IMG/VR virus record: IMGVR_UViG_3300027973_000176
Span: 1-28,420 of that record
Source of the DNA: a virus
Length of the DNA: 28,420 nt
Reading direction: 5' to 3' (one strand)
Part shown: piece after piece, positions 6,431 through 18,502 of the stretch
Numbering within the stretch: position 1 is the stretch's first letter
How the letters are laid out: each line of letters starts with the position of its first letter
Translations under genes and position numbers: made by a program
Notes under the pieces: generated by a model
What the model was told of the DNA's origin: nothing
What the model saw: only the letters and a program-made list of their open reading frames with translations
Databases searched by the model: none

Positions 6431-9091
6431 TTATGCTAAAACTGGTTGCGGTAGTTTTCCGTCAAGATTTACTACCTTGTCTTTGATTGTTTCCACAAAC
6501 CCTTTGATCGCGGACATAACATCTTCCATCGTTGCCGGAACGGTTGCATCTCCGCCTGTCCCTCCATCTCCTCCGCTTCCTGCATCTCCACCTGCTCCGC
6601 CCTGCGAATTTCCTCCAGCTCCACCAACTCCACCGGTTCCGCCGGTGAAGTTGTTTTTTATTTCCGTGTTTAACCCAGTAATTGAATTATCAAAAGCCTT
6701 TTTATCTACAGTTGCAGTAACTGTAACCGGGACATCTCCAAGGCCTTTTATTTTATCTTGCGCGTCGGTTGCTTGGACAACCAAATCTGCCTTCAGTGGA
6801 TTTCCGCCTAAAAATTTGATTATTTCTTTAATTGCATCTTGTCCCTTTGCCGAATCAATTGGGTTTTTAGAAAGGTCGGTTTTCACTTTGTCCATATAAG
6901 CGACAACAGCTTCAATTTGCTCTTGCCCTGTTTGCCCGATTTTATCGACACCTAGCTTTTTAGCAAGATCAGGAAAACTTTTTTGAGCAAGATCGGTTCC
7001 AAGCAACTTGTCCATTGCTTTTAGCTCATCGTGCGCACCCTTTGAAGAGTTGTGAGCCTTGCTCATGGCTTCAATTTCTTTCATTTTTGAAAGCGTGTCG
7101 GCAAAGCCTGTTGCAGATTTTAGGTTTTCATTTAGTTTCCTAGAGTTCTCTGCTGCCTGAAAAAACAAAGGATTTCCTTCCTTGTCATATTGCTTTATAT
7201 TTGCGGAGTTGTTTGCGGCGATAGCCATGTTGGTCGCGAACGTAGCGGCTTGTTCTGGATCAAGTCCTGCGTCCAATGCTTTTTTAACATCCTCGGCATA
7301 TTTCTTTTGTTCTTGCAAAGCAGTGACGCGCTCCGAGTCGCCAGCGGCTTGCGCCTCGGCTAGCTCAAGTTGGTATTTTAGTTCGTCTTGTTTTAGCGCA
7401 TTCTGTTCTGCTTGCGCCTTTGCCTTTTTTGCGTCCTCCTCCGCTGCTTTTGCTTGTCCTTTTTGATATTCGTCAAAGTATTTCCGCGCCTCTTGCTCTG
7501 CTGCCGCCTGCTCTTTTGTTGTTTCGCTGACGGTTGCCGTCTGATCGTCCTGTGATTTTGTGATGCTTTGCGTCAGTCGATCAATTTCCTGCTGGTGTTT
7601 TTCTAGGTCGGTAAACAGCGGCGGAACGTCGGCCATGTTTTCTTTGAAGTTTTCTGGGATGTTGCTCATCGACTCGCCAGCTTTTTCAGCGGTCAACTCC
7701 GCGTGAATTGGTATTACATCAAGCGCGGTTTTAACTTCATTTGCCGATGTTTCTGCTTGATATCTGAATGTGTCTGCCATTCCAGATTTGCCAATGGCGT
7801 CCATGAAATCAGCCATTACATTATAGAGCTTTTCCGTAATGTATCCAGAGATCAACTTCCCGAAGTCTTGAAACAAAGCAACCAACGGCCCACCTGATGC
7901 GAATTGCTCCATTATGAAGTCGCCGGTTGTCTTAAACGCAGCGACCATATTGGTGTAGACGTTGTTTGCAGTCTCTTTGAATTGTAGTTGTATCGCCTCC
8001 CCTACAATTTGAAATGCCGTTCCCATGTCGCCAGCGGAAATCGCATCCACAGCGGCTTGGAATCCCTTCATTCCTTCTCCTGCGCCTGTGAAAAATCCTG
8101 CAAGCTCTTGACCTAGTTTTGTAGCGTCAATGAGCGTTAAGGCAGTCGTTAGCGCGTCGAGTGCAGGGGAGACTTTGTCGATAATTCCTGCCGCAAATTC
8201 TACAAATTTGCCACTGATGACCGTCAAGTTGTCGCTGATTCTGTCGAATTGCGCTGCTCCCGCTTTCATCACTTCGGGCAACGATCCGAGTTGAGCCTTT
8301 GCTGTCTCAACCTCGCCATCCATGTTTGCAAATAATTGGTTCAACGCACCGCCAGATTCTCCGAATATGTCCATCGATACAGCGGCCCTTTCCGCAGGAT
8401 CGGGAATGCCTGCAATCGCTTTTCCTATTGCGCGGAGTTGCTCATCCGGTGATAAGTTTTGAAGCGTAGAAAGCGGAATGCCAAGCTGAGTAAATGCGTC
8501 AGCGGCTGCGCTCGTGCCGTCGCCAGCGTCAACAATTGCCTTTTGTATTTTGTTTATAATCGGCCCCAGTGAATCGGCCCCCACCCCTGTATTTTGGAAT
8601 GCTCGCTCTAGTAGCATGATCTTATCTACAGCAACGCCTGTGCGGTCTGAAAGATCCGCAAGCCTGCCACCCATGCTCAACGCATCTCCGAAGCTCTGAA
8701 CGGTCTTCTGCGCGGCAGCAAAGGCCGCATCAATCGCTGCCGTTCCAACCTTAACTGCCGCGCCCGCAATACCTGCGCCTATTGCTATTTCTCCAAATCC
8801 GGAACCTGCTTTTTTCCCAGCGGTTTCGGAATTATCCCCAGTTTTTTTGATATCAGAATTAAGCTCCGCGACCTTTGGCGATGTTTCGGTGGACGAATCG
8901 CCGATAGCCTTGATCCTTTTCTCCATGCTTTCAACCTGCCCGATACGCTTGATCGTGCTTTCAAGCTCGATCATCGAAAGCTCGCCGCTCAATAACTTGT
9001 CTTTTAGCCGGGTCAGTTCGTCTTGAACGGCCTTGAGTGTCTTTTCAAGTCCTGTGTCGGTTGCTCCAAATTCTACTGTTACTTCGGCCAT
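6431..9091 (-). CDS. Tape measure protein, 886 aa
   Basis: The longest protein of the window and immediately downstream of the chaperone frameshift region, as expected for a tail-length ruler. The N-terminus is coiled coil (about residues 8-60). A Gly/Ala-rich hydrophobic segment lies near 97-125 (GFGEIAIGAGIAGAAVKVG), followed by a region with LSDRTGVAVDKIMLLERAF, IDKIQKAIVDAG-like and AAVSMDIFGESGGALNQLF blocks that are typical of siphophage tape measures. Residues about 490-600 are a Glu/Lys/Ala/Gln coiled coil. Near 800-840 there is a Gly-rich low-complexity linker (GGTGG, GGAGG, GSGGDGG). If the usual 1.5 angstrom per residue rule holds, the tail would be roughly 130 nm. Confidence 0.88.
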   Translation of the reverse strand: MAEVTVEFGATDTGLEKTLKAVQDELTRLKDKLLSGELSMIELESTIKRIGQVESMEKRIKAIGDSSTETSPKVAELNSDIKKTGDNSETAGKKAGSGFGEIAIGAGIAGAAVKVGTAAIDAAFAAAQKTVQSFGDALSMGGRLADLSDRTGVAVDKIMLLERAFQNTGVGADSLGPIINKIQKAIVDAGDGTSAAADAFTQLGIPLSTLQNLSPDEQLRAIGKAIAGIPDPAERAAVSMDIFGESGGALNQLFANMDGEVETAKAQLGSLPEVMKAGAAQFDRISDNLTVISGKFVEFAAGIIDKVSPALDALTTALTLIDATKLGQELAGFFTGAGEGMKGFQAAVDAISAGDMGTAFQIVGEAIQLQFKETANNVYTNMVAAFKTTGDFIMEQFASGGPLVALFQDFGKLISGYITEKLYNVMADFMDAIGKSGMADTFRYQAETSANEVKTALDVIPIHAELTAEKAGESMSNIPENFKENMADVPPLFTDLEKHQQEIDRLTQSITKSQDDQTATVSETTKEQAAAEQEARKYFDEYQKGQAKAAEEDAKKAKAQAEQNALKQDELKYQLELAEAQAAGDSERVTALQEQKKYAEDVKKALDAGLDPEQAATFATNMAIAANNSANIKQYDKEGNPLFFQAAENSRKLNENLKSATGFADTLSKMKEIEAMSKAHNSSKGAHDELKAMDKLLGTDLAQKSFPDLAKKLGVDKIGQTGQEQIEAVVAYMDKVKTDLSKNPIDSAKGQDAIKEIIKFLGGNPLKADLVVQATDAQDKIKGLGDVPVTVTATVDKKAFDNSITGLNTEIKNNFTGGTGGVGGAGGNSQGGAGGDAGSGGDGGTGGDATVPATMEDVMSAIKGFVETIKDKVVNLDGKLPQPVLA

Positions 9092-9095
9092 ATTA

Positions 9096-9896
9096 TTAAG
9101 TTTCTACAAGGTTTTTTTGTCTCTTTTTTAGGATCTGATTCATCTGATTGCGCATCTTTACCACTACAACAGCGGTTGCATTGTCTTGTTCGCTTTCTGG
9201 AATGACGTTGCTTGCCCACGGCACATTATTAGTCAAGAAAACGCGAGGATTCTTAATGTCGCCCGTCATATCTTGAACCTTGCCAGATCCGCTTTTCATT
9301 GCCTTTTTTACCCAAGTCGGAAATCCAGCAAGAAGCCCACCCTTGTTTACTTTTTTCAGCTGTGTAGCGCAATCGGCCCATCCGCCTTTGCTGATGCCGA
9401 CTCGCTTTTGCACCTCTGAGATGTATGTCTCTTTATCCGAGTCGGAAGCGATAAATAGCTTTGATCCTCGTGACTTTGTGCGGCCTGTCGTTTTGTTCCG
9501 AGCCTCGTTGTGAACGGATTTCATTTTGGTCGCGCCAATGACTTCCATTCCTGTCCACTTATTCAAAAAACCGATGTTGCGAAGGATCGTTTCAACGATA
9601 TCAAATCGACCACTTTTTATCAAAACATTGAGACGTGCCTTGATCCTTTGTGATCCAACTCTGTCAGCGTATTCGTCAAGTTGCTCTGTGTTTTTGATAA
9701 TCTTGCCGATGTCATTTTTTACGCGAATAGTTCCAGACGTTTGCTCTTCTCCGAATGGCTGCGTCCGCCTAGCTAGCTCAACGCAAAGAAGGCGAGCGTT
9801 GAGCATGACGGCGTCAGGAATCGTGACCTCGCGGATCTCCGCGTAGTCCGCCATGATCTGCTCGAACTTCAAGCTCTCGAATTTAAACTTTGCCAT
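9096..9896 (-). CDS. Minor tail-region protein, 266 aa, unknown function
   Basis: Lies between the chaperone frameshift gene and the tape measure. The ATG at 9896 falls 14 bases inside the end of the frameshift extension. The product is basic and mostly helical at its start (FKFESLKFEQIMADYAEIR, then PDAVMLNARLLCVELARRTQ), with a central Lys/Arg-rich stretch (NEARNKTTGRTKSRGSK) and a helical C-terminus (MRNQMNQILKKRQKN). No catalytic motif is visible. The extra gene between chaperone and tape measure is not present in lambda, and its order suggests a structural or assembly role. Confidence 0.6.
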   Translation of the reverse strand: MAKFKFESLKFEQIMADYAEIREVTIPDAVMLNARLLCVELARRTQPFGEEQTSGTIRVKNDIGKIIKNTEQLDEYADRVGSQRIKARLNVLIKSGRFDIVETILRNIGFLNKWTGMEVIGATKMKSVHNEARNKTTGRTKSRGSKLFIASDSDKETYISEVQKRVGISKGGWADCATQLKKVNKGGLLAGFPTWVKKAMKSGSGKVQDMTGDIKNPRVFLTNNVPWASNVIPESEQDNATAVVVVKMRNQMNQILKKRQKNLVET

Positions 9897-10517
9897 ATTT
9901 TGCGAGGGTTGCCTCTATGGTGGCGAAAGCGTCAACATCCGTTGACACGGTGTCGTTTTGCCATGACGCAGGATTCCCGTGCGCATACGTGTCGGCCTGG
10001 ATCATCTGCAATCCAGCCGAGAACGGAAGCTCTTCAAGGATGTAATTGTAGCCCCAAGAGGTGATCTTTACTAGGCGGTAAACATAAGAGATCAGCCAGT
10101 TGGGGCTGTTTAGTTTCCCGATCCTAATCCTTCACTTGTCCCTGCACGAGACGTGAAGAGAGCGGAAGAATATCGCTTGAACGCTGCATTCATGTCTTCC
10201 GAGATCATCGAAATTTCGTTGTGGTGAATGAGGTTTTCACTGATCCAAAGATCGACTGCATCGCTGAATAATTCTCTGTCATTTACAACTGGCTGAATCT
10301 TTGCAAATGGCGCAGAATGTAAAAAGGCATATGCTCCGCTCTTCCAGATCAAATCAAATTTGTCTCCGAAAATGTCATTGCGTTGCATCCATGATACGGT
10401 CAAAGCCGTGATCGGGCGAAATTCCCACTTGTGCAGTTCTCTTTTGTTTTCGGTTGCGCCTTCAATTCGAAGGATTTCGTCGTCTTTTTCTAACTCGTTT
10501 CGTTTTGTTTTTTTCAT
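9883..10517 (-). CDS. Tail assembly chaperone, -1 frameshift product (gpGT-like), about 211 aa
   Basis: The zero-frame gene (135 aa) ends TCG GGA AAC TAA. The heptamer G GGA AAC at 10119-10113 is a canonical X XXY YYZ -1 slippery site. After slipping, translation continues CTA AAC AGC and so on for 76 residues, beginning LNSPNWLISYVYRLVKITSW and ending IEATLAKYGKV, to TAA at 9883-9885. The extension has no in-frame ATG or GTG and its first TTG is about 35 codons in, so it can only be made well by frameshifting. Order (tube, this gene, tape measure) and site match lambda G/GT, where the minority GT product links tape measure and tube subunits. Its W-x-x-x-x-x-Y-x-Y pattern looks like real protein. 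Confidence 0.8.
10093..10108 (-). promoter_or_regulatory. Stem-loop downstream of the slippery site
   Basis: CAGCC and GGCTG form a five-base-pair stem with a six-base loop, beginning four bases after the slippery heptamer. An alternative partner exists: AGCCCCAA at 10107-10100 is exactly complementary to TTGGGGCT at 10057-10050. The two pairings exclude each other, so this RNA could switch between a short hairpin and a longer-range stem. Either could stimulate frameshifting. Confidence 0.45.
10110..10517 (-). CDS. Tail assembly chaperone, zero-frame product (gpG-like), 135 aa
   Basis: The major product of the chaperone gene. The N-terminus is basic (MKKTKRNELEKDDEILRIEG). The middle is a compact mixed segment (WEFRPITALTVSWMQRNDIF, then LIWKSGAYAFLHSAPFAKI). 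Then comes a helical segment around VVNDRELFSDAVDLWISENL. The last residues, SEGLGSGN, are encoded over the slippery heptamer. Sequence similarity to lambda gpG is not evident by eye, so the call rests on order, size and the frameshift signal. In related phages this protein coats the tape measure before tail tube assembly and is absent from the virion. No Shine-Dalgarno is seen; the leader is A/T-rich. Confidence 0.75.
   Translation of the reverse strand: MKKTKRNELEKDDEILRIEGATENKRELHKWEFRPITALTVSWMQRNDIFGDKFDLIWKSGAYAFLHSAPFAKIQPVVNDRELFSDAVDLWISENLIHHNEISMISEDMNAAFKRYSSALFTSRAGTSEGLGSGN
10113..10119 (-). promoter_or_regulatory. Programmed -1 frameshift slippery heptamer GGGAAAC
   Basis: Read on minus, the heptamer is in the correct phase for tandem slippage from GGA-AAC to GGG-AAA. 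It abuts the zero-frame TAA. Lambda uses GGGAAAG at the same place in its G gene. Confidence 0.8.
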
Positions 10518-10522
10518 AAAAA

Positions 10523-11488
10523 TTATTTTTCTTCTGAACCATCTTTTTTCTTTTTGCCTTTTTTACCCTTTTCCCCTTTTTCCCCTTTTTTCCCGTTTAA
10601 ATTTGAGCCGGAAGGCATATACGATCTTCCAGGAGATCCCGATTTCCCATCTTCCCCACTTTTACCTGATGGCGATGTTATTTTTTTAACGTCGCTTACA
10701 AGTTCTTTCGCTTTATCTGCAAGAGCCTTAAGCGCATCCTCTTTCTCTTTTCGGGATTTAGTCGGATCTTTTGCGACGTTTTTAAAGTCATCCTTTTGTT
10801 TTTTTAAATCCTTTAAATCCTTAAATATCTTTGGTTCAGGCCCCGTCGCCGTCGCCGCCGCCGCCGCCGCCGTATCGCTTGCTGGATCGCGCTGTGGCTT
10901 TGCTTTTTGATCGATGGCTTGATCGGAGGGTGCTTGGGGAGGTGCTTCAGAAGGTGCTTCAGAGGGTCTTTGAGAAGGTGCTTCAGGCTTGCCATTCGTT
11001 GGATCGCTTGCTGGATCGCGCGGTAGCTTTGCTTCTCCCTCTATCCGCTTGCGCTCTTCCATGTCTCTCTCATCATCCATTAATTCTCGCTCGCGCCTTT
11101 CCGTTTCTCTGTCTTGATCGGAAGGTTCTTGAGGTGATTTAACCGTAGGTGCTTCAGAAGGTGCTTGAGAGGGTGTTGTTGGATCTAGAATCTCATAACC
11201 TTTTCTTAACCATTCAACTTTTTCGGAAAGGTTTTGTTGTATTTTATCTCGCTTTGCAAAAGCTGGATCAACTTCTAGCACGCGCTTTTGCATTTCCTGA
11301 TCATCAAATTCCATGCGCGCTCTCTTTTTATCTTCCTCGGTTTTTTGTGGGTTTTCAAAAACTGAAAATACTTTTTTTTCCTCACTTTGCTGCCACTTAA
11401 AAAATGCGCCCTGTGCTGCTTTTGCTTCTGAATCGGCTTCAGAAAGTTGCTTTTCTAAACTTGAAATCAAATCGATCAGAACGCTCAT
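10523..11488 (-). CDS. Disordered, coiled-coil protein with collagen-like tail, 321 aa
   Basis: Not recognised as a family. Residues 1-100 are coiled coil (SVLIDLISSLEKQLSEADSE onward). Residues about 105-215 are Pro/Ser/Ala/Glu repeats (QAPSEAPT, APSQRPSEAPSEAPPQAPS) with Arg/Glu-rich blocks between. Then comes an Ala run, a Lys-rich helical segment (IFKDLKDLKKQKDDFK), and a C-terminus with Gly-X-Y triplets (GKSGEDGKSGSPGRS, GKKGEKGEKGKKGKK). The start overlaps the previous stop as ATGA. An elongated, trimeric or flexible structural element is likely. It sits between the tail tube and the chaperone gene, an unusual place for a fibre. Confidence 0.6.
   Translation of the reverse strand: MSVLIDLISSLEKQLSEADSEAKAAQGAFFKWQQSEEKKVFSVFENPQKTEEDKKRARMEFDDQEMQKRVLEVDPAFAKRDKIQQNLSEKVEWLRKGYEILDPTTPSQAPSEAPTVKSPQEPSDQDRETERRERELMDDERDMEERKRIEGEAKLPRDPASDPTNGKPEAPSQRPSEAPSEAPPQAPSDQAIDQKAKPQRDPASDTAAAAAATATGPEPKIFKDLKDLKKQKDDFKNVAKDPTKSRKEKEDALKALADKAKELVSDVKKITSPSGKSGEDGKSGSPGRSYMPSGSNLNGKKGEKGEKGKKGKKKKDGSEEK
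10847..10873 (+). repeat. GCC/GTC trinucleotide tract encoding poly-Ala
   Basis: A run of about nine GCC-type triplets inside the 321-aa gene codes for consecutive Ala residues on the minus strand. Its length is prone to slippage in whole codons, so the frame would be kept. Confidence 0.75.
10926..11180 (+). repeat. Degenerate GGTGCTTCAGA repeats encoding Pro-Ser-Glu-Ala units
   Basis: Short imperfect direct repeats (GGTGCTTCAGAAGGTGCTTC and variants) occur in two clusters, about 10930-10990 and 11150-11180. On the minus strand they code for S-E-A-P / Q-A-P-S units of the disordered linker. Confidence 0.65.
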
Positions 11489-11883
11489 TTCAAAAATCTC
11501 GTCATTTCCTGTTTGGTTTTGTCTGAAGCATTCTCTGAAATCGCGATGCGTTTGCCGTTGTGTTCGATCTCAATTAAGCGCGGAGTATTGCGAATGATGT
11601 CCACCAATACGTCCCTATTCGCCAATGCGGCGCGGATGTAACAAAGCGGATTCTCTGGGTCTTTCGCTTCAAGTTCGTCGCCGTCTTTTGTCATCTGGCG
11701 ATAGACCTGCGATGCGTCTTGGCCTTTCGAGTTCTCGCCTTCAAACCAGAACTCCGTTGACTCTTTGCCGTCGGTGCGCACCAGTCGAGTGACCGGTGGG
11801 AAGTTCATCTTGAAGCCCATCGTCGCGAGTGCCACAGCTGCTTTAAGGTTGATCGTGTGGAAGAATTTCTTGTTTGAGTCCAT
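11485..11883 (-). CDS. Tail-region protein of unknown function, 132 aa
   Basis: I place the start at ATG 11883 (MDSNKKFFHTINLKAAVALA) because the upstream open frame to 11925 crosses the terminator hairpin. The sequence has a basic N-terminus, ALATMGFKMNFPPVTRLVRT, a central YRQMTKDGDELEAKDPENPL block and a C-terminal IEIEHNGKRIAISENASDKT segment. No family recognised. It is the first gene after the tube terminator, so it depends on read-through or its own promoter, and its stop overlaps the next start as ATGA. Its position is that of a tail assembly factor. Confidence 0.6.
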   Translation of the reverse strand: MDSNKKFFHTINLKAAVALATMGFKMNFPPVTRLVRTDGKESTEFWFEGENSKGQDASQVYRQMTKDGDELEAKDPENPLCYIRAALANRDVLVDIIRNTPRLIEIEHNGKRIAISENASDKTKQEMTRFLK

Positions 11884-11887
11884 ATAT

Positions 11888-11917
11888 AAAAAGGCGGCTC
11901 CCTTTAGCCGGGGAGCC
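11888..11917 (-). terminator. Intrinsic terminator after the tail tube gene
   Basis: Read on minus: GGCTCCC, an eight-base loop, GGGAGCC, then GCC and TTTTT. Seven perfect G/C-rich pairs followed by a T-tract, 20 bases after the tube stop codon. It would limit transcription into the chaperone and tape measure genes, which are needed in far lower amounts. Confidence 0.8.
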
Positions 11918-11936
11918 AGCGGCATGAGCCAGGGTG

Positions 11937-12302
11937 TTAGACGATCTCTGGGTACTGCGTTGCGGAGACGGTGATCGACTTGAATGTTCCGGCACCTGTC
12001 TTTTCGGAAACGGAATCGACGATGACTGCGCCACCAGAAACGCCATAGGATGTCGTGTCGTTGGCGAGAGTAAGGATGTTGGCGAGTTCGTAAGCAACGC
12101 CGCCGTTGATGACGCCGTCGAGCGAGATCGTTGCAGACTTGTTGAAATACGCCACGGCCACGGTATCGCCAAGAGCGTCCATGACGGTTGCTTTATCGCT
12201 CTGAACCGAGCGAGAAAATGAGTTGAGAAGGAGACCTGTCTCTTGGAGAAGGCCGAACTCGACGCCTGAAGCGACGGATGAGGTGATGACGGTTGCTGGC
12301 AT
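11937..12302 (-). CDS. Major tail tube protein candidate, 121 aa
   Basis: Beta-rich with little helix: MPATVITSSVASGVEFGLLQ at the start, then a block AVAYFNKSATISLDGVINGG (residues 49-68) that resembles the strand pair of siphophage tube proteins, and a C-terminal TGAGTFKSITVSATQYPE. It lies where lambda has its tube gene, before the chaperone, and is followed by a strong terminator as expected for an abundant product. It is shorter than most tube proteins, with no extra Ig-like domain. No Shine-Dalgarno precedes the ATG. A different small virion protein is possible. Confidence 0.55.
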   Translation of the reverse strand: MPATVITSSVASGVEFGLLQETGLLLNSFSRSVQSDKATVMDALGDTVAVAYFNKSATISLDGVINGGVAYELANILTLANDTTSYGVSGGAVIVDSVSEKTGAGTFKSITVSATQYPEIV

Positions 12303-12320
12303 GGTAATTCGTGGAAATTG

Positions 12321-12767
12321 TCAACTTGCGAAAAGTGCGGCGTGAACCGTGATCGTTACCGAGCGTTCAAAGTGCCGCTCGTTTGAAGAAAGTGAAACTG
12401 GCCCGTCGCGAAGTATGCCGAAGACAAAAGCATATTGCGGACGGACTGCATTGAGTTTGGTTTTTAGGCCGGTGATGTCGTGCGAAATGCACAGCACCTG
12501 TGACCACAAGTTCTCCATTGCCATCTGATCCATATCGTCGGCCTGCACGATCAAGGCGATATCAACGGAGAATTGGAAAATTGCGGAGTCGATAATACTC
12601 TCGCGCTGGCGAGTGCATTTAACAAAGCACGCTGGCAATGTCATCGTTCCGAAGTTCTCCGCTGCCGTTACTACAAGTGCGCTCTGCATCTCTTGCTGGA
12701 GCGCGAGAACAAAAGTATCAGTCAATGCTTTTTCAAGCGTCAGCGTGTAAGTCGAGTCCGTTATCAT
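12321..12767 (-). CDS. Tail terminator/completion protein candidate, 148 aa
   Basis: I chose ATG 12767 (MITDSTYTLTLEKAL), with AAGGGA just upstream. A TTG start at 12797 would add ten residues and overlap the previous gene more. The alternating pattern (MTLPACFVKCTRQRES, AIFQFSVDIALIVQAD, SVTITVHAAL) fits the small alpha/beta fold of tail terminator proteins. Its position, just before the tube gene, matches lambda U. The assignment is mostly by position. Confidence 0.45.
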   Translation of the reverse strand: MITDSTYTLTLEKALTDTFVLALQQEMQSALVVTAAENFGTMTLPACFVKCTRQRESIIDSAIFQFSVDIALIVQADDMDQMAMENLWSQVLCISHDITGLKTKLNAVRPQYAFVFGILRDGPVSLSSNERHFERSVTITVHAALFAS

Positions 12768-12969
12768 TCCCTTGGGCGGAAACGTCAACAAGCCCAAGCC
12801 GCGCGATCTCTGCTTCGCATTCGTCTTTTGTTCCTACGAACAGCACGCTCTGCGTCGAGATCGACTTTTCTGTCTCATCAAAAAAGATGATCGTGCTGCC
12901 ATCGTAAACGAGTTTCCAAGCGGTTGACTCGTCGAATGCCCATCCCTGTTCGTTCGGTGAAATTATCAT
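12733..12969 (-). CDS. Hypothetical conserved-looking phage protein, 78 aa
   Basis: A compact protein: N-terminal MIISPNEQGWAFDESTAWKL, beta-strands around VYDGSTIIFFDETEKS and a C-terminal helix DECEAEIARLGL. The ATG overlaps the preceding PATR fibre stop (ATGA), and its end overlaps the next gene by about 35 bases. Unrecognised. By order it may be a small connector or a fibre accessory protein. Confidence 0.6.
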   Translation of the reverse strand: MIISPNEQGWAFDESTAWKLVYDGSTIIFFDETEKSISTQSVLFVGTKDECEAEIARLGLVDVSAQGNDNGLDLHADA

Positions 12970-14084
12970 GCTATTGTAAGCGTAGAGTTTGCCGATGTAT
13001 AAACTCCGGTTCGCCCTGGAGCACCGACCAAAGTCACCGTTGCGTAGGTGTTGGTAGTTGTCCCTTGGAAAAACCGAAACGTCGTGCCTGCGGTCGGGGC
13101 GACACTAAAGGAAACGGATAGGGTTGTTGCCGTAAAACTAGCCGTCGGTGTTGTTGTGGCGAATGGTTTTAATACGCGCAGCGTGCCTGCGCTGATGGTC
13201 GTTGACCCAGTGTAGTCATTCGAAACGGTAAGAGTCGAAAAGGTTGAAAGAATACCAGTTCCAACTTTTGTAAAAGACCCCGCTCCTGTTATTTTACCCG
13301 TTATTGAAAAAGCCGAAGTCGAGTTCCCTACGCTTGAATTTGTGCCAGTAGCCAACGTGATCGTGCCAGTATAAATTGGAGTGTGTGCTGCAACAACCGA
13401 CTCATTCCACAACGCTCCATTGCCATCTGGCCCAGCTCCACCGTTGAGCGTGAAATTATTGTTGATCGTCGGGCTGGTATAAGTCCTAAATTGCGCCCCG
13501 CTAGAAATGTTGATTGCTGCATTTCGGAGTGGTAATCCACCTGTCCCATCCTGACCGACGCCGCCGTTGAGAATGTTTATTTGCCCCAAGCTTGTTCCAG
13601 CCGTCCCATTAAAATAAAGTGGCAATGTGCCAGCAGTTGTGTCCACATAAATATTCAAGGTCTGACCGCCACCGTTAAGAGTGCCAGATTGTAAGTTTAT
13701 CTGACGCAAGCCGTTCAACTTTGTTACAGTAGCCGTAGCAGAAAGAGTTATCGCTCCACTTACAGCAAAGTTGTTGGCACTAAGATTGTAGGCAAGGTTT
13801 CCTCCATTTAAGGTAGTCGTTCCCACAACCAAGGCCGTATTATTTGCGCCATTTCCAATTTGTAGGGTTCCAGCATTAACAATAGTTCCGCCCGTGTAGG
13901 TATTGGTTGCGGTGAGGGTAAGAGTTCCAGGCCCATTTTTTACAATGCCAAATGCTCCAGAAATGACGGTTGAAAAAGTTGTCGCAGAATAAATCGTGAA
14001 CTGGCGAAAAGCGGCGGTTGCGCTTGCAATGAAACTAACAACGCTTGCACCAACTTTTGCTGCGCTGGAGTCGTTTAATTTCAT
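12966..14084 (-). CDS. Fibre-like protein with autotransporter-type PATR repeats, 372 aa
   Basis: A Gly/Thr/Asn-rich beta-solenoid protein. Two units match the passenger-associated transport repeat of autotransporters: residues 46-78, with G-x-G-T-L-T-L, N-T-Y-T-G-G-T and A-G-T-L-Q-I-G-N, and residues 270-303, with K-V-G-T-G, D-Y-T-G-S-T and S-A-G-T-L-R-V. Between them are NGG-centred turns (TLNGGNLAYN, ILNGGVGQDG, LNGGAGPDG). There is no signal peptide and no beta-barrel translocator, so it is not an exported autotransporter. It follows the collagen-tandem repeat fibre (ATGA overlap), and together they look like surface appendages, perhaps at the neck. The passenger-type repeat was probably acquired from a host surface protein. 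Confidence 0.75.
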   Translation of the reverse strand: MKLNDSSAAKVGASVVSFIASATAAFRQFTIYSATTFSTVISGAFGIVKNGPGTLTLTATNTYTGGTIVNAGTLQIGNGANNTALVVGTTTLNGGNLAYNLSANNFAVSGAITLSATATVTKLNGLRQINLQSGTLNGGGQTLNIYVDTTAGTLPLYFNGTAGTSLGQINILNGGVGQDGTGGLPLRNAAINISSGAQFRTYTSPTINNNFTLNGGAGPDGNGALWNESVVAAHTPIYTGTITLATGTNSSVGNSTSAFSITGKITGAGSFTKVGTGILSTFSTLTVSNDYTGSTTISAGTLRVLKPFATTTPTASFTATTLSVSFSVAPTAGTTFRFFQGTTTNTYATVTLVGAPGRTGVYTSANSTLTIA

Positions 14085-15558: not shown

Positions 15559-16221
15559 TCAAAACTTGCGCTCGATTCTGCGCTGATTCGGATGCGTGAA
15601 GTCGTGTTTCGGGCTGTCCGAAATGTGAACCCAGCTTTTGCGAAATGCGGACGCAAGAATGCTCGTGCTCGTGTTGATCGTCACAACCTCGTTGGCGTCC
15701 CGGATGTATGCGCACATATATTCTATGCTCTCAAACTCAGCCATACCGTGAGCGGCCTTCCCCGCGCAAAGAACGGGCCTTCCGTTGGCGACTTGATGCG
15801 CCGCTGTAATAACATCCCTCGGATCGATCTTTTTATCTTGACTATATCCGGTCGGGAAACAAAGAACCCAAGATTTGAGTTCGGGCGGAGTGACGATGGC
15901 AGGCGAGTTAAGCACAATCTGCCTGTCGATGTTCTTGCCTTCGGGAAAGAGTCCGTAAACGTAGTCGCTCCAACCCAGCGGACTCGCACAAAAGTCTTCG
16001 TGCAGGTCTGGCCAGATTTGCAAGTTGATGATTCGGTCAAATCCGCCGTGATCGTTCTGTGGATAAATCGGCTTGCAGTAATCGACCATCGCGAAAAGAC
16101 CGTGATACTCCGCCATGCACTCAAAGGTTACGTTGTGCCCTTGATCCGCGAAGTGCTTCGCTATCGGCAAGCACCGAGCGATGTCTCCGAGCCTCAAATG
16201 ATAGATAATTAAGATATTCAA
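15559..16221 (-). CDS. GT-B-type glycosyltransferase (GT9/heptosyltransferase-like), 220 aa
   Basis: The likely start is TTG 16221, which overlaps the stop of the gene before (TTGA) and begins directly at the first strand (NILIIYHLRLGDIARCLPIA). The ATG at 16320 would read over the previous gene. The L-R-L-G-D-I motif and following helix are the N-terminal Rossmann hallmark of GT9-like ADP-heptose transferases. The middle has FDRIINLQIWPDLHED. Near the C-terminus comes VVTINTSTSILASAFRKSWV, resembling the second Rossmann domain. At 220 residues it is shorter than full GT9 enzymes (about 320-350), so part of a domain is reduced. The sugar and acceptor are unknown. Confidence 0.65.
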   Translation of the reverse strand: MNILIIYHLRLGDIARCLPIAKHFADQGHNVTFECMAEYHGLFAMVDYCKPIYPQNDHGGFDRIINLQIWPDLHEDFCASPLGWSDYVYGLFPEGKNIDRQIVLNSPAIVTPPELKSWVLCFPTGYSQDKKIDPRDVITAAHQVANGRPVLCAGKAAHGMAEFESIEYMCAYIRDANEVVTINTSTSILASAFRKSWVHISDSPKHDFTHPNQRRIERKF

Positions 16222-16802
16222 AACGTGTAATATTGTTCCGCGGATTTTCCTGCGACCCAGCCATGGAATCCGAATGAGCGATCCGGCCCCGCCGTGTTTT
16301 CTTCGATATAATGCTCCCAAGAGAATGCTGCCGCTACGTTTACCGGAGCGTATTTGATGCCGTTATCTCGAAACCCTTGCTCCATTGTCCTGCACAAAAA
16401 GACATCGCCTGCCTCGCCCTTCCAAAGTGCCTCGGCCTTTGCTGCCATTTGCAAGAACTTCTGGCTCTGGAGCGTGAATCCGGTATTGCCTACGCGATGT
16501 CCCACGTTCCAGGACGCAGGCCATGGTGCGCCGATCATATCGTATTCTAGCCACGAATCCTGCCACAGGTGCGGATTGGCAATAAAGCCATCGTGCGTGC
16601 AAATGAGCGCGTGCGAGGTGTCGATATAGTCGGAGAATCGGCCTAATTCCCAATGCATCGCCTGTTGATAGTTGCAGTCCTCCGCGATGTAAACAGCGTC
16701 TCCGAATCCACCTAGTCCGCAAAGGTGGTTGAACAGCTTTTCGCTTTGTTCGTGCCTCGTTTTCAATCCTTCAAAAACGATAAGAGTGACGTCTTTATTC
16801 AT
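16218..16802 (-). CDS. DUF5672-like putative glycosyltransferase, 194 aa
   Basis: Contains the DUF5672 hallmarks: HALICTHDGFIANPHLWQDS (residues 64-83), EYDMIGAPWP (85-94) and VGNTGFTLQSQKFLQ (102-116). This family has a GT-A-like fold and is found in polysaccharide clusters. The ATG overlaps the upstream stop as ATGA, and the next gene starts on its stop, so the three sugar genes form one unit. Two Trp-rich stretches near the end (AAAFSWEHYIEE, FGFHGWVAGK) are typical of the family's C-terminus. A catalytic role has to be inferred; no DxD is obvious. Confidence 0.7.
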   Translation of the reverse strand: MNKDVTLIVFEGLKTRHEQSEKLFNHLCGLGGFGDAVYIAEDCNYQQAMHWELGRFSDYIDTSHALICTHDGFIANPHLWQDSWLEYDMIGAPWPASWNVGHRVGNTGFTLQSQKFLQMAAKAEALWKGEAGDVFLCRTMEQGFRDNGIKYAPVNVAAAFSWEHYIEENTAGPDRSFGFHGWVAGKSAEQYYTF

Positions 16803-18472
16803 TTTGGGTGGAGTTCGTCGAAGATTGCTTTTGCCCTTGCATACTCTTCCGGATCGTTTCCGCGCTGGTATGTAGCATCGAGCGGACGCTCTTCAAAAAA
16901 CGGATGGTGATGAACGATGCTAATGTCACGAGCATCAACAATCGCCCCATTTTTCGCGGCACGAAAGGTGAAATCTGTGTCCGAATAGACGTTTCGGAAT
17001 CGTGGGTTGAATAGTCCATTTTGCTCATAATATTTACACGTTAAGATCGCCATGCATAGTAAATCGTCTTTTCTATATCCGTCCGAGATACGAAGCACCT
17101 GTGGTTTTGAAATGTCGAGACGCTTTCCTATCATCTCGTCCCACCCTGGCGGACATTCCCAGTCGTCCGATAACTGGATAATGATGTCGCCGGTCGCTTG
17201 CGCTGCTCCCAAGTTCCACGCTCCGACGGAATACCCATGGTCTTTTTGTGTCACGGATCTGAATCGTTTCAGAACGTCGGCTTTTTCGTCGTCGTGATCG
17301 ACCGCAAATATATGCTCCACGCGCTCTGGATGCGTTGCGCGGGATAACCATAGCGTCATACATTGCACGGCCTCTACCGGCCTTCCTCGCGTTGCGTGGA
17401 CTAGTGAGATTTTCGGCTTGCTTGATCCTGCCAGCGTCTCGCGCTCGATCTCTTCGGCGTCTTCGTTGCGTCCGAGCAGTCGGAGCGTCCATGCGTAGAG
17501 TTGATCGCCCTTCCAACCGTACCACTCTTTTCGGTGCGTCCATTGTGGGAACTTAGGAGTAGGCACTTTGAGCATTTCTTCTACCACTTTTAAAGCATCT
17601 TGATATTTTTTCTCGTCAAGAAGGATGCTGGCCTCAAGCCCGTAGGCTTCGCGGCGGTTCGGCTCAAGTGCCTTGGCCTTGCGTGCTAGGTTGAGCGATG
17701 TTTCTCCGCTCGTAATGTTGGCACAATTTAAAAGGATTTCGTAGCGGTTAACGCCGTCGAGATCGCTCAAGGCCAATGCCTCCGATCCATATTTTGCAGC
17801 GAGTTCCTTGTTTCCTGCGATGAAGTTCTCGTAGTGCAAATAGAATTTGAAATGCGAAGTCATCCGATCTTGGTGCATCAAGATTCTGCGGTTGCGCTCG
17901 CTGCTGTTCCTATGACCTATTGGTGGTTGGTGTATGATTTCAAGATCGCGCCGCATACAGACCTGCACGTCCTTTGTAGGCTGCGCGTTCTCATGCACCG
18001 GCCGATGCCACCATGCCGTGTGGTAACGAAAGAATCGCTCGCGTGGTGCGCGTTTGCCCTGCTCTGGAATAACGTAGTCGGTGAGAATCCAATCTTGTTC
18101 CGGTGGGCATTCTTCAAGAGCGGTCAGCGTTGGCGCGACCATTGCCGGTTCAATTATGTCGTCGCAGTCTGCCCACATAACCCAGCCGTCTTTCCCTGCG
18201 AGTTCGTAAGCCTTGGCGAATGCTTTGTTCCGAGCTTCGCCAAAGTTGTCGAGGTGCTCCCAATCTGCGACCAGCGGAGAGTTGAGATATTCGTCAACGT
18301 GACAACCGAGTTCCCTGGCGATGTCGAGCGTGCGATCTGGTACGAGTGCTCCAATTGCTCGGACGATAACGATCTCGTCACAGATTTGTTTGAGCGACTT
18401 TATGCATCGCTCGATGCGCGGTTCTTCGTTGCCACAGATAAGCCCTGCGACCAGCTTCTTTTTTTGGTTCAT
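16799..18472 (-). CDS. Two-domain GT-A glycosyltransferase with TPR linker, 557 aa
   Basis: Start at ATG 18472 (MNQKKKLVAGLICGNEEPRI), with AAGGG five bases upstream. The frame to 18499 would add nine unlikely residues. Residues 1-185 are a GT2/WaaE-like domain: GNEEPRIERC, VDEYLNSP, FGEARNKAF and the acidic motif W-A-D-C-D-D (residues 100-105). Residues about 218-346 are helical TPR-like repeats. Residues 353-557 form a second GT-A domain with the opening ISLVHATRGRP, a VGAWNLGAAQATGDIIIQLS block leading to D-D-W (436-438) and a C-terminal H-H-H-P. Such double domains can add two sugars. It begins right after the capsid terminator. Confidence 0.82.
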   Translation of the reverse strand: MNQKKKLVAGLICGNEEPRIERCIKSLKQICDEIVIVRAIGALVPDRTLDIARELGCHVDEYLNSPLVADWEHLDNFGEARNKAFAKAYELAGKDGWVMWADCDDIIEPAMVAPTLTALEECPPEQDWILTDYVIPEQGKRAPRERFFRYHTAWWHRPVHENAQPTKDVQVCMRRDLEIIHQPPIGHRNSSERNRRILMHQDRMTSHFKFYLHYENFIAGNKELAAKYGSEALALSDLDGVNRYEILLNCANITSGETSLNLARKAKALEPNRREAYGLEASILLDEKKYQDALKVVEEMLKVPTPKFPQWTHRKEWYGWKGDQLYAWTLRLLGRNEDAEEIERETLAGSSKPKISLVHATRGRPVEAVQCMTLWLSRATHPERVEHIFAVDHDDEKADVLKRFRSVTQKDHGYSVGAWNLGAAQATGDIIIQLSDDWECPPGWDEMIGKRLDISKPQVLRISDGYRKDDLLCMAILTCKYYEQNGLFNPRFRNVYSDTDFTFRAAKNGAIVDARDISIVHHHPFFEERPLDATYQRGNDPEEYARAKAIFDELHPK

Positions 18473-18502
18473 GTTTACCCTTGATGTATATGTCAACAAA
18501 AC

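Follow-up and report, generated by a model that had tools for sequence, protein, structure and literature searches.

We analysed a virus contig of 28,420 bases, IMGVR_UViG_3300027973_000176 (the window; all coordinates are positions in it), whose record encodes a lambda-type portal and a GpA terminase. On its minus strand, an open reading frame (ORF) of 135 amino acids (aa) ends in ..TCG GGA AAC TAA, with the heptamer GGGAAAC in X_XXY_YYZ phase, and a further open stretch continues in the -1 frame. The features of the locus and its neighbourhood, from high to low coordinates, are:

11937..12302, minus strand: tail-tube-like protein, 121 aa (Foldseek matches to tail tube and neck proteins)
11485..11925, minus strand: 146-aa gene, directly preceding the short-form ORF in most relatives
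10110..10517, minus strand: zero-frame ORF, putative short form (gpG-like), 135 aa, ATG to TAA
10122..10133, minus strand: possible Shine-Dalgarno (SD)-like 5' stimulator GAAGGATTAGGA, tentative, from anti-SD pairing energy in the family
10113..10119, minus strand: candidate slippery heptamer G_GGA_AAC, an in-phase XXXAAAC in 65/65 distinct relatives
10110..10112, minus strand: zero-frame stop TAA abutting the heptamer, at distance 0 in all relatives
10050..10107, minus strand: 3' stem-loop starting 5 nt past the heptamer, from folding energy and frozen third positions
9883..10113, minus strand: -1 frame extension (putative, gpT-like), 76 codons and TAA, the C at 10113 being re-read
9096..9896, minus strand: 266-aa gene in the 'tail completion' position, its ATG overlapping the end of the extension by 14 nt
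6431..9091, minus strand: tape measure protein of 886 aa (best match to PHROG tape measure families at E 1.1e-17)

Reading in the -1 frame is uninterrupted between 10131 and a TAA ending at 9883, which bears out the 76-codon open frame that the original prediction, made from the letters of the window, had placed after the 135-aa ORF. It had also put GGGAAAC in the correct phase before the zero-frame stop, and the heptamer indeed occupies 10119..10113 and touches the TAA. The joined product would have 211 aa, with the junction ..SGN-LNSPNW... A gene finder was expected to leave 10110-9896 as a gap, and no ORF of at least 60 aa with a usual start is found over this interval on the minus strand. 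The claim on start codons held in part: the first TTG does lie deep inside the extension (10011), but the ATG (10005) and GTG (9948) that were said to be absent are present. Because all of these sit 35-55 codons into the conserved part, the error does not sink the argument that the extension has no start of its own. As a chance-level comparison, in-phase XXXYYYZ heptamers occur at 46/7643 in-phase sites (0.6%) of the window's genes. Another stop-touching heptamer in the window, CCCAAAA TGA at 16808, was rejected as an ordinary ATGA gene overlap.

The genes follow one another in the order tail-tube-like 121-aa, 146-aa, putative chaperone pair, 266-aa and tape measure. The pair lies between major tail protein and tape measure, as expected of a G/GT-type gene, and the 146-aa and 266-aa genes also fall in this interval. 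A homologue of the 266-aa gene is found directly 3' of the pair in relatives. The best Foldseek match of the 121-aa protein has an E of 7.4e-4 (prob 1.00, TM about 0.4), obtained with a model of moderate quality (mean pLDDT 67).

In the window and in one other locus (L001) only, the 146-aa gene and the pair are separated by a 321-aa gene (10523-11488) whose C-terminus is collagen-like. Conservation is mosaic: at 11937-12797, the tube-like and 158-aa genes are 97-100% identical to many relatives, and at 6431-10517 the chaperone gene (about 50%) and the tape measure are far more divergent. The 372-aa protein encoded at 12966-14084 has Gly/Thr-rich repeats (..GTLTLTATNTYTGGTIVNAGTLQIG..) and the look of an autotransporter-type beta-repeat; many relatives match it over the C-terminal part only. 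At 16218-18499, within the structural gene block, a family 2 glycosyltransferase gene is followed, with an ATGA overlap, by one for a DUF5672 protein.

Conservation of the heptamer and of both reading frames

We identified relatives in IMG/VR in two ways: searches with the short form and with the adjacent 266-aa protein gave 24 loci, and an alignment of joined products gave 76, with many contigs shared between the two sets. The comparative set consists of 65 distinct joined sequences from uncultivated viruses in which both parts are complete, the window included. A tblastn search of 50,697 phage records (IME_AB3 among them) returned no relative of the family, and genome contigs searched with an alignment of seven joined products gave no match.

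Every locus with both parts complete has the same arrangement. The heptamer is GGGAAAC in 46 of the 65 sequences, CCCAAAC in 16 and AAAAAAC in 3, always in phase, and the zero-frame stop directly 3' of it is TAA (58), TGA (4) or TAG (3). The XXX triplet thus varies, but it switches only as a full block (GGG, CCC or AAA before AAAC). In a tree of the joined proteins built without the heptamer residues, we count at least about 7 changes of heptamer type, not all of which need be independent mutations because close relatives may have recombined it.

Read in its own frame, the short form has a pN/pS of 0.35. For the extension the value is 0.33 in the -1 frame and 1.15-1.42 in its other two frames (1.15-1.48 over the other frames of both parts). 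These other two frames are closed in 65/65 sequences, and purifying selection acts on the -1 frame. The conservation of the heptamer and of the -1 frame in relatives, which the original prediction had named as a check, was therefore found for both in all 65 sequences, and together with the RNA features below it strongly supports the proposed programmed -1 frameshift.

A constrained stem-loop downstream of the slip site

The predicted stem-loop has outer arms that pair AGCCCCAA (10107-10100) with 10057-10050, given as TTGGGGCU and TTGGGGCT. In the window it folds at -24.4 kcal/mol (z -4.63), and 0/200 shuffles are as stable. Resampling of synonymous codons gives a z of -3.39 for the window and a median z of -3.2 for the family, with 65/65 sequences below -1. 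Standard pairs make up 91.8% of the stem across the family vs 21-63% in slid controls. Formal base-pair covariation in the stem was not above shuffles in the 65-sequence family, because most stem pairs hardly change; the structure is supported instead by synonymous constraint and by its folding energy.

Codon choice is narrow throughout the signal. At the slip site, GGA is used in 46/46 Gly codons and AAC in 65/65, and the Leu codon that follows is CTA (61) or CTG (4) only, choices that keep the zero-frame stop. Codon 138 has C as its third base throughout (AGC, GGC or CGC, and one AAC), CCC is found in 63/65 sequences among the stem codons, and codon 156 is GGC in 65/65. The frozen third positions fall in both arms of the hairpin. 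An X_XXY_YYZ heptamer with a 3' structure at 5 nt, as in a -1 programmed frameshift signal, is thus in place. A 5' element is more tentative: anti-SD pairing energy in the family peaks 4-8 nt upstream of the heptamer, and the SD-like stretch GAAGGATTAGGA, which doubles as the coding sequence of a Gly/Ser linker, is a possible stimulator.

There is a second strong block of synonymous constraint at 9919-9959 (about codons 187-199 of the joined product's gene; ratio about 0.25). The 266-aa gene starts roughly 25-60 nt downstream of this block, which is perhaps a translation-initiation or RNA element.

A putative tail assembly chaperone, probably made in two forms

We consider it very probable that the locus encodes a tail assembly chaperone of the G/GT type, for which a -1 slip before the stem-loop gives a 135-aa short form and a 211-aa fusion. 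Most ribosomes would read 10517..10110 and end at the TAA. A minority, paused by the stem-loop 5 nt downstream, would move back one base on G_GGA_AAC; their tRNAs would re-pair on GGG and AAA, and 76 more codons would be read. Sequence comparison shows the signal, the conserved frames, the stem-loop and the gene order; the slippage and its rate are inferred. The short and long forms would then cover the tape measure protein, and the extension would bring in tail-tube subunits, in a lambda-like manner; lambda G/GT provides the functional precedent for a chaperone in two forms (PMC5009743).

The role as tail assembly chaperone is strongly suggested by gene order and two-form architecture. Two features that characterise G/GT-type genes are present: an in-phase slippery heptamer close to where the short ORF ends, and a conserved coding extension in a shifted frame that lacks a start of its own. 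On this point position and architecture support the original prediction, but the profile search that it proposed matched no chaperone family. PHROGs, Pfam and PDB were searched with profiles of the short form, the joined product and divergent relatives, and none of them matched. The model of the short form is helical, with an N-terminal hairpin (mean pLDDT 75.6, core pLDDT 85-95), and Foldseek found no significant match to it in viral and PDB libraries. A profile match is a supporting rather than defining feature of the G/GT type, and we did not count its absence as exclusion because recognised chaperone families are also mutually dissimilar: an hhalign comparison of two of them reveals no clear similarity. 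With no Pfam, PHROG, PDB or fold match, this is an unrecognised protein family. The mechanism is an ordinary one, known in phages; the protein family is unannotated.

The lack of family or fold matches to known chaperones, and the extra 146-aa gene between the pair and the tube gene, would also suit a true frameshift pair with another function, e.g., another tail protein made in two lengths. We regard this as improbable, since the site before the tail-completion and tape-measure genes, the size and the two-form design are those of lambda G/GT and IME_AB3, and the gene position is retained in relatives. Still less probable is an independent, overlapping gene for the extension, whose translation would re-initiate at a rare start codon on or close to the TAA. 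Terminating ribosomes would be available, since the conserved segment adjoins the TAA, and ATT (10128) and CTG (10095) are nearby in the window. Yet 62/65 relatives have no ATG, GTG or TTG in the -1 frame between the upstream stop and the heptamer, and the conservation of the extension begins with the first codon past the slip site (LN.P.W). Such start codons being so rare upstream (3/65) and conservation beginning right at the slip, independent initiation, an outcome that would have counted against the original prediction, appears unlikely; re-initiation would also leave the invariant in-phase heptamer and its block changes unexplained. Slippage by RNA polymerase is hardly credible: the AAAAAAC clade does offer six adenines, but the runs in GGGAAAC and CCCAAAC are of at most three, generally understood as too short for it, and a phased heptamer with a downstream stem is a ribosomal feature.

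Comparison with known two-form systems

Among characterised systems, the putative chaperone gene resembles lambda G/GT in being a two-form gene ahead of the tape measure, with a -1 shift on a GGGAAA-type heptamer (PMC5009743) and an extension that reaches the next gene. It differs from lambda in that the proteins show no family match, that a further gene separates the pair from the tape measure, and that the lambda heptamer, GGGAAAG as the original prediction had stated, lies 15 nt ahead of the G stop whereas GGGAAAC touches the stop in the window.

This adjacency is found in Acinetobacter phages Loki and IME_AB3, in which AAAAAAC adjoins the zero-frame stop (AAAAAAC TGA in IME_AB3). IME_AB3 also shares the order chaperone, extension, tail completion and tape measure, with 'tail completion' in the slot of the 266-aa gene. 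In these two phages XXX is AAA, whereas it is mostly GGG or CCC in the window family. The authors of the Loki study noted the adjacency in that phage and the same motif in IME_AB3 (PMC5313236).

Roseobacter phages CRP-811 and CRP-831 (PHROG 16513, 344) have AAAAAAC touching the stop in 62/62 distinct loci, followed by a -1 extension and then the tape measure; unlike in the window family, the extension has about 50 codons and there is no comparable stem-loop (median z -0.6). In Synechococcus phages S-CBS1 and S-CBS3 (PHROG 680, 569, 8233), XXXAAAC touches the stop in 35/35 distinct loci and there is some downstream structure (median z -1.6), but most extensions have about 107-137 codons. By hhalign, neither the CRP nor the S-CBS chaperones showed similarity to the window family, in comparisons of very few sequences. 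CRP-811-like and S-CBS-like chaperones match tail or chaperone PHROGs, and the loci of both groups with a stop-touching XXXAAAC reach down to about 26% identity. In the CRP-811 and CRP-831 records (L026, L105) the extension is unannotated and fills a gap before the tape measure; in those of S-CBS3 and S-CBS1 (L027, L106) it is annotated as a separate gene in GenBank. Stop-touching AAAAAAC heptamers end an annotated chaperone or hypothetical gene in the CRP and S-CBS phages and also in loci L109-L233.

The stop codon next to the heptamer

Taken over three dissimilar families, the distance from heptamer to stop is 0 in 162/162 sequences (65 + 62 + 35). The rule is frequent rather than general, given the 15 nt of lambda, the 90 nt between a candidate GGGAAAC and the stop in Rhodobacter phage RcKemmy, and IS1, where no stop follows: considered as a precedent for a stop-abutting A_AAA_AAC, IS1 was rejected because it reads AAAAAAC TCA. 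We found no open-licence paper stating a stop-adjacency rule across families.

The breadth of the adjacency suggests that the frameshift signal may include the stop codon. In E. coli, slippage is weak on heptamers ending in AAC, G_GGA_AAC and A_AAA_AAC among them (PMC4066793), and at a plant virus shift site the change of a stop 3 nt downstream into a sense codon is reported to alter frameshifting strongly (PMC5009743). These two observations make a role of the stop in slippage plausible.

There is nearly an even chance that the fixed stop lies outside the signal and merely ends the short form exactly where the shared part does. The stem, 5 nt away, is well placed for slippage while AAC occupies the A site and the stop has yet to arrive, and lambda functions with its stop 15 nt off; against this, the distance is 0 throughout three dissimilar families, and the plant virus site is reportedly affected by a change of the nearby stop. 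We put forward, tentatively and as a somewhat doubtful proposal, that X_XXA_AAC and an immediate stop form a composite frameshift signal in several dissimilar chaperone families, where slippage and release factor would compete and the stop would thereby help to set the ratio of short to long form, at sites with weak slippage in E. coli.

Implications

This putative tail assembly chaperone adds a family that is invisible to present profile libraries, and suggests that frameshift signals combined with gene order can find chaperone genes where homology fails. Next to a well-supported, ordinary mechanism, the stop-touching heptamer across families is the less ordinary part. As a rule for annotation it is simple and could recover many extensions so far missed; no joined gene is present in the published records of CRP-811, CRP-831, S-CBS1 and S-CBS3. 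It also makes a mechanistic question testable, namely whether competition with termination tunes the frameshifting of tail chaperones.
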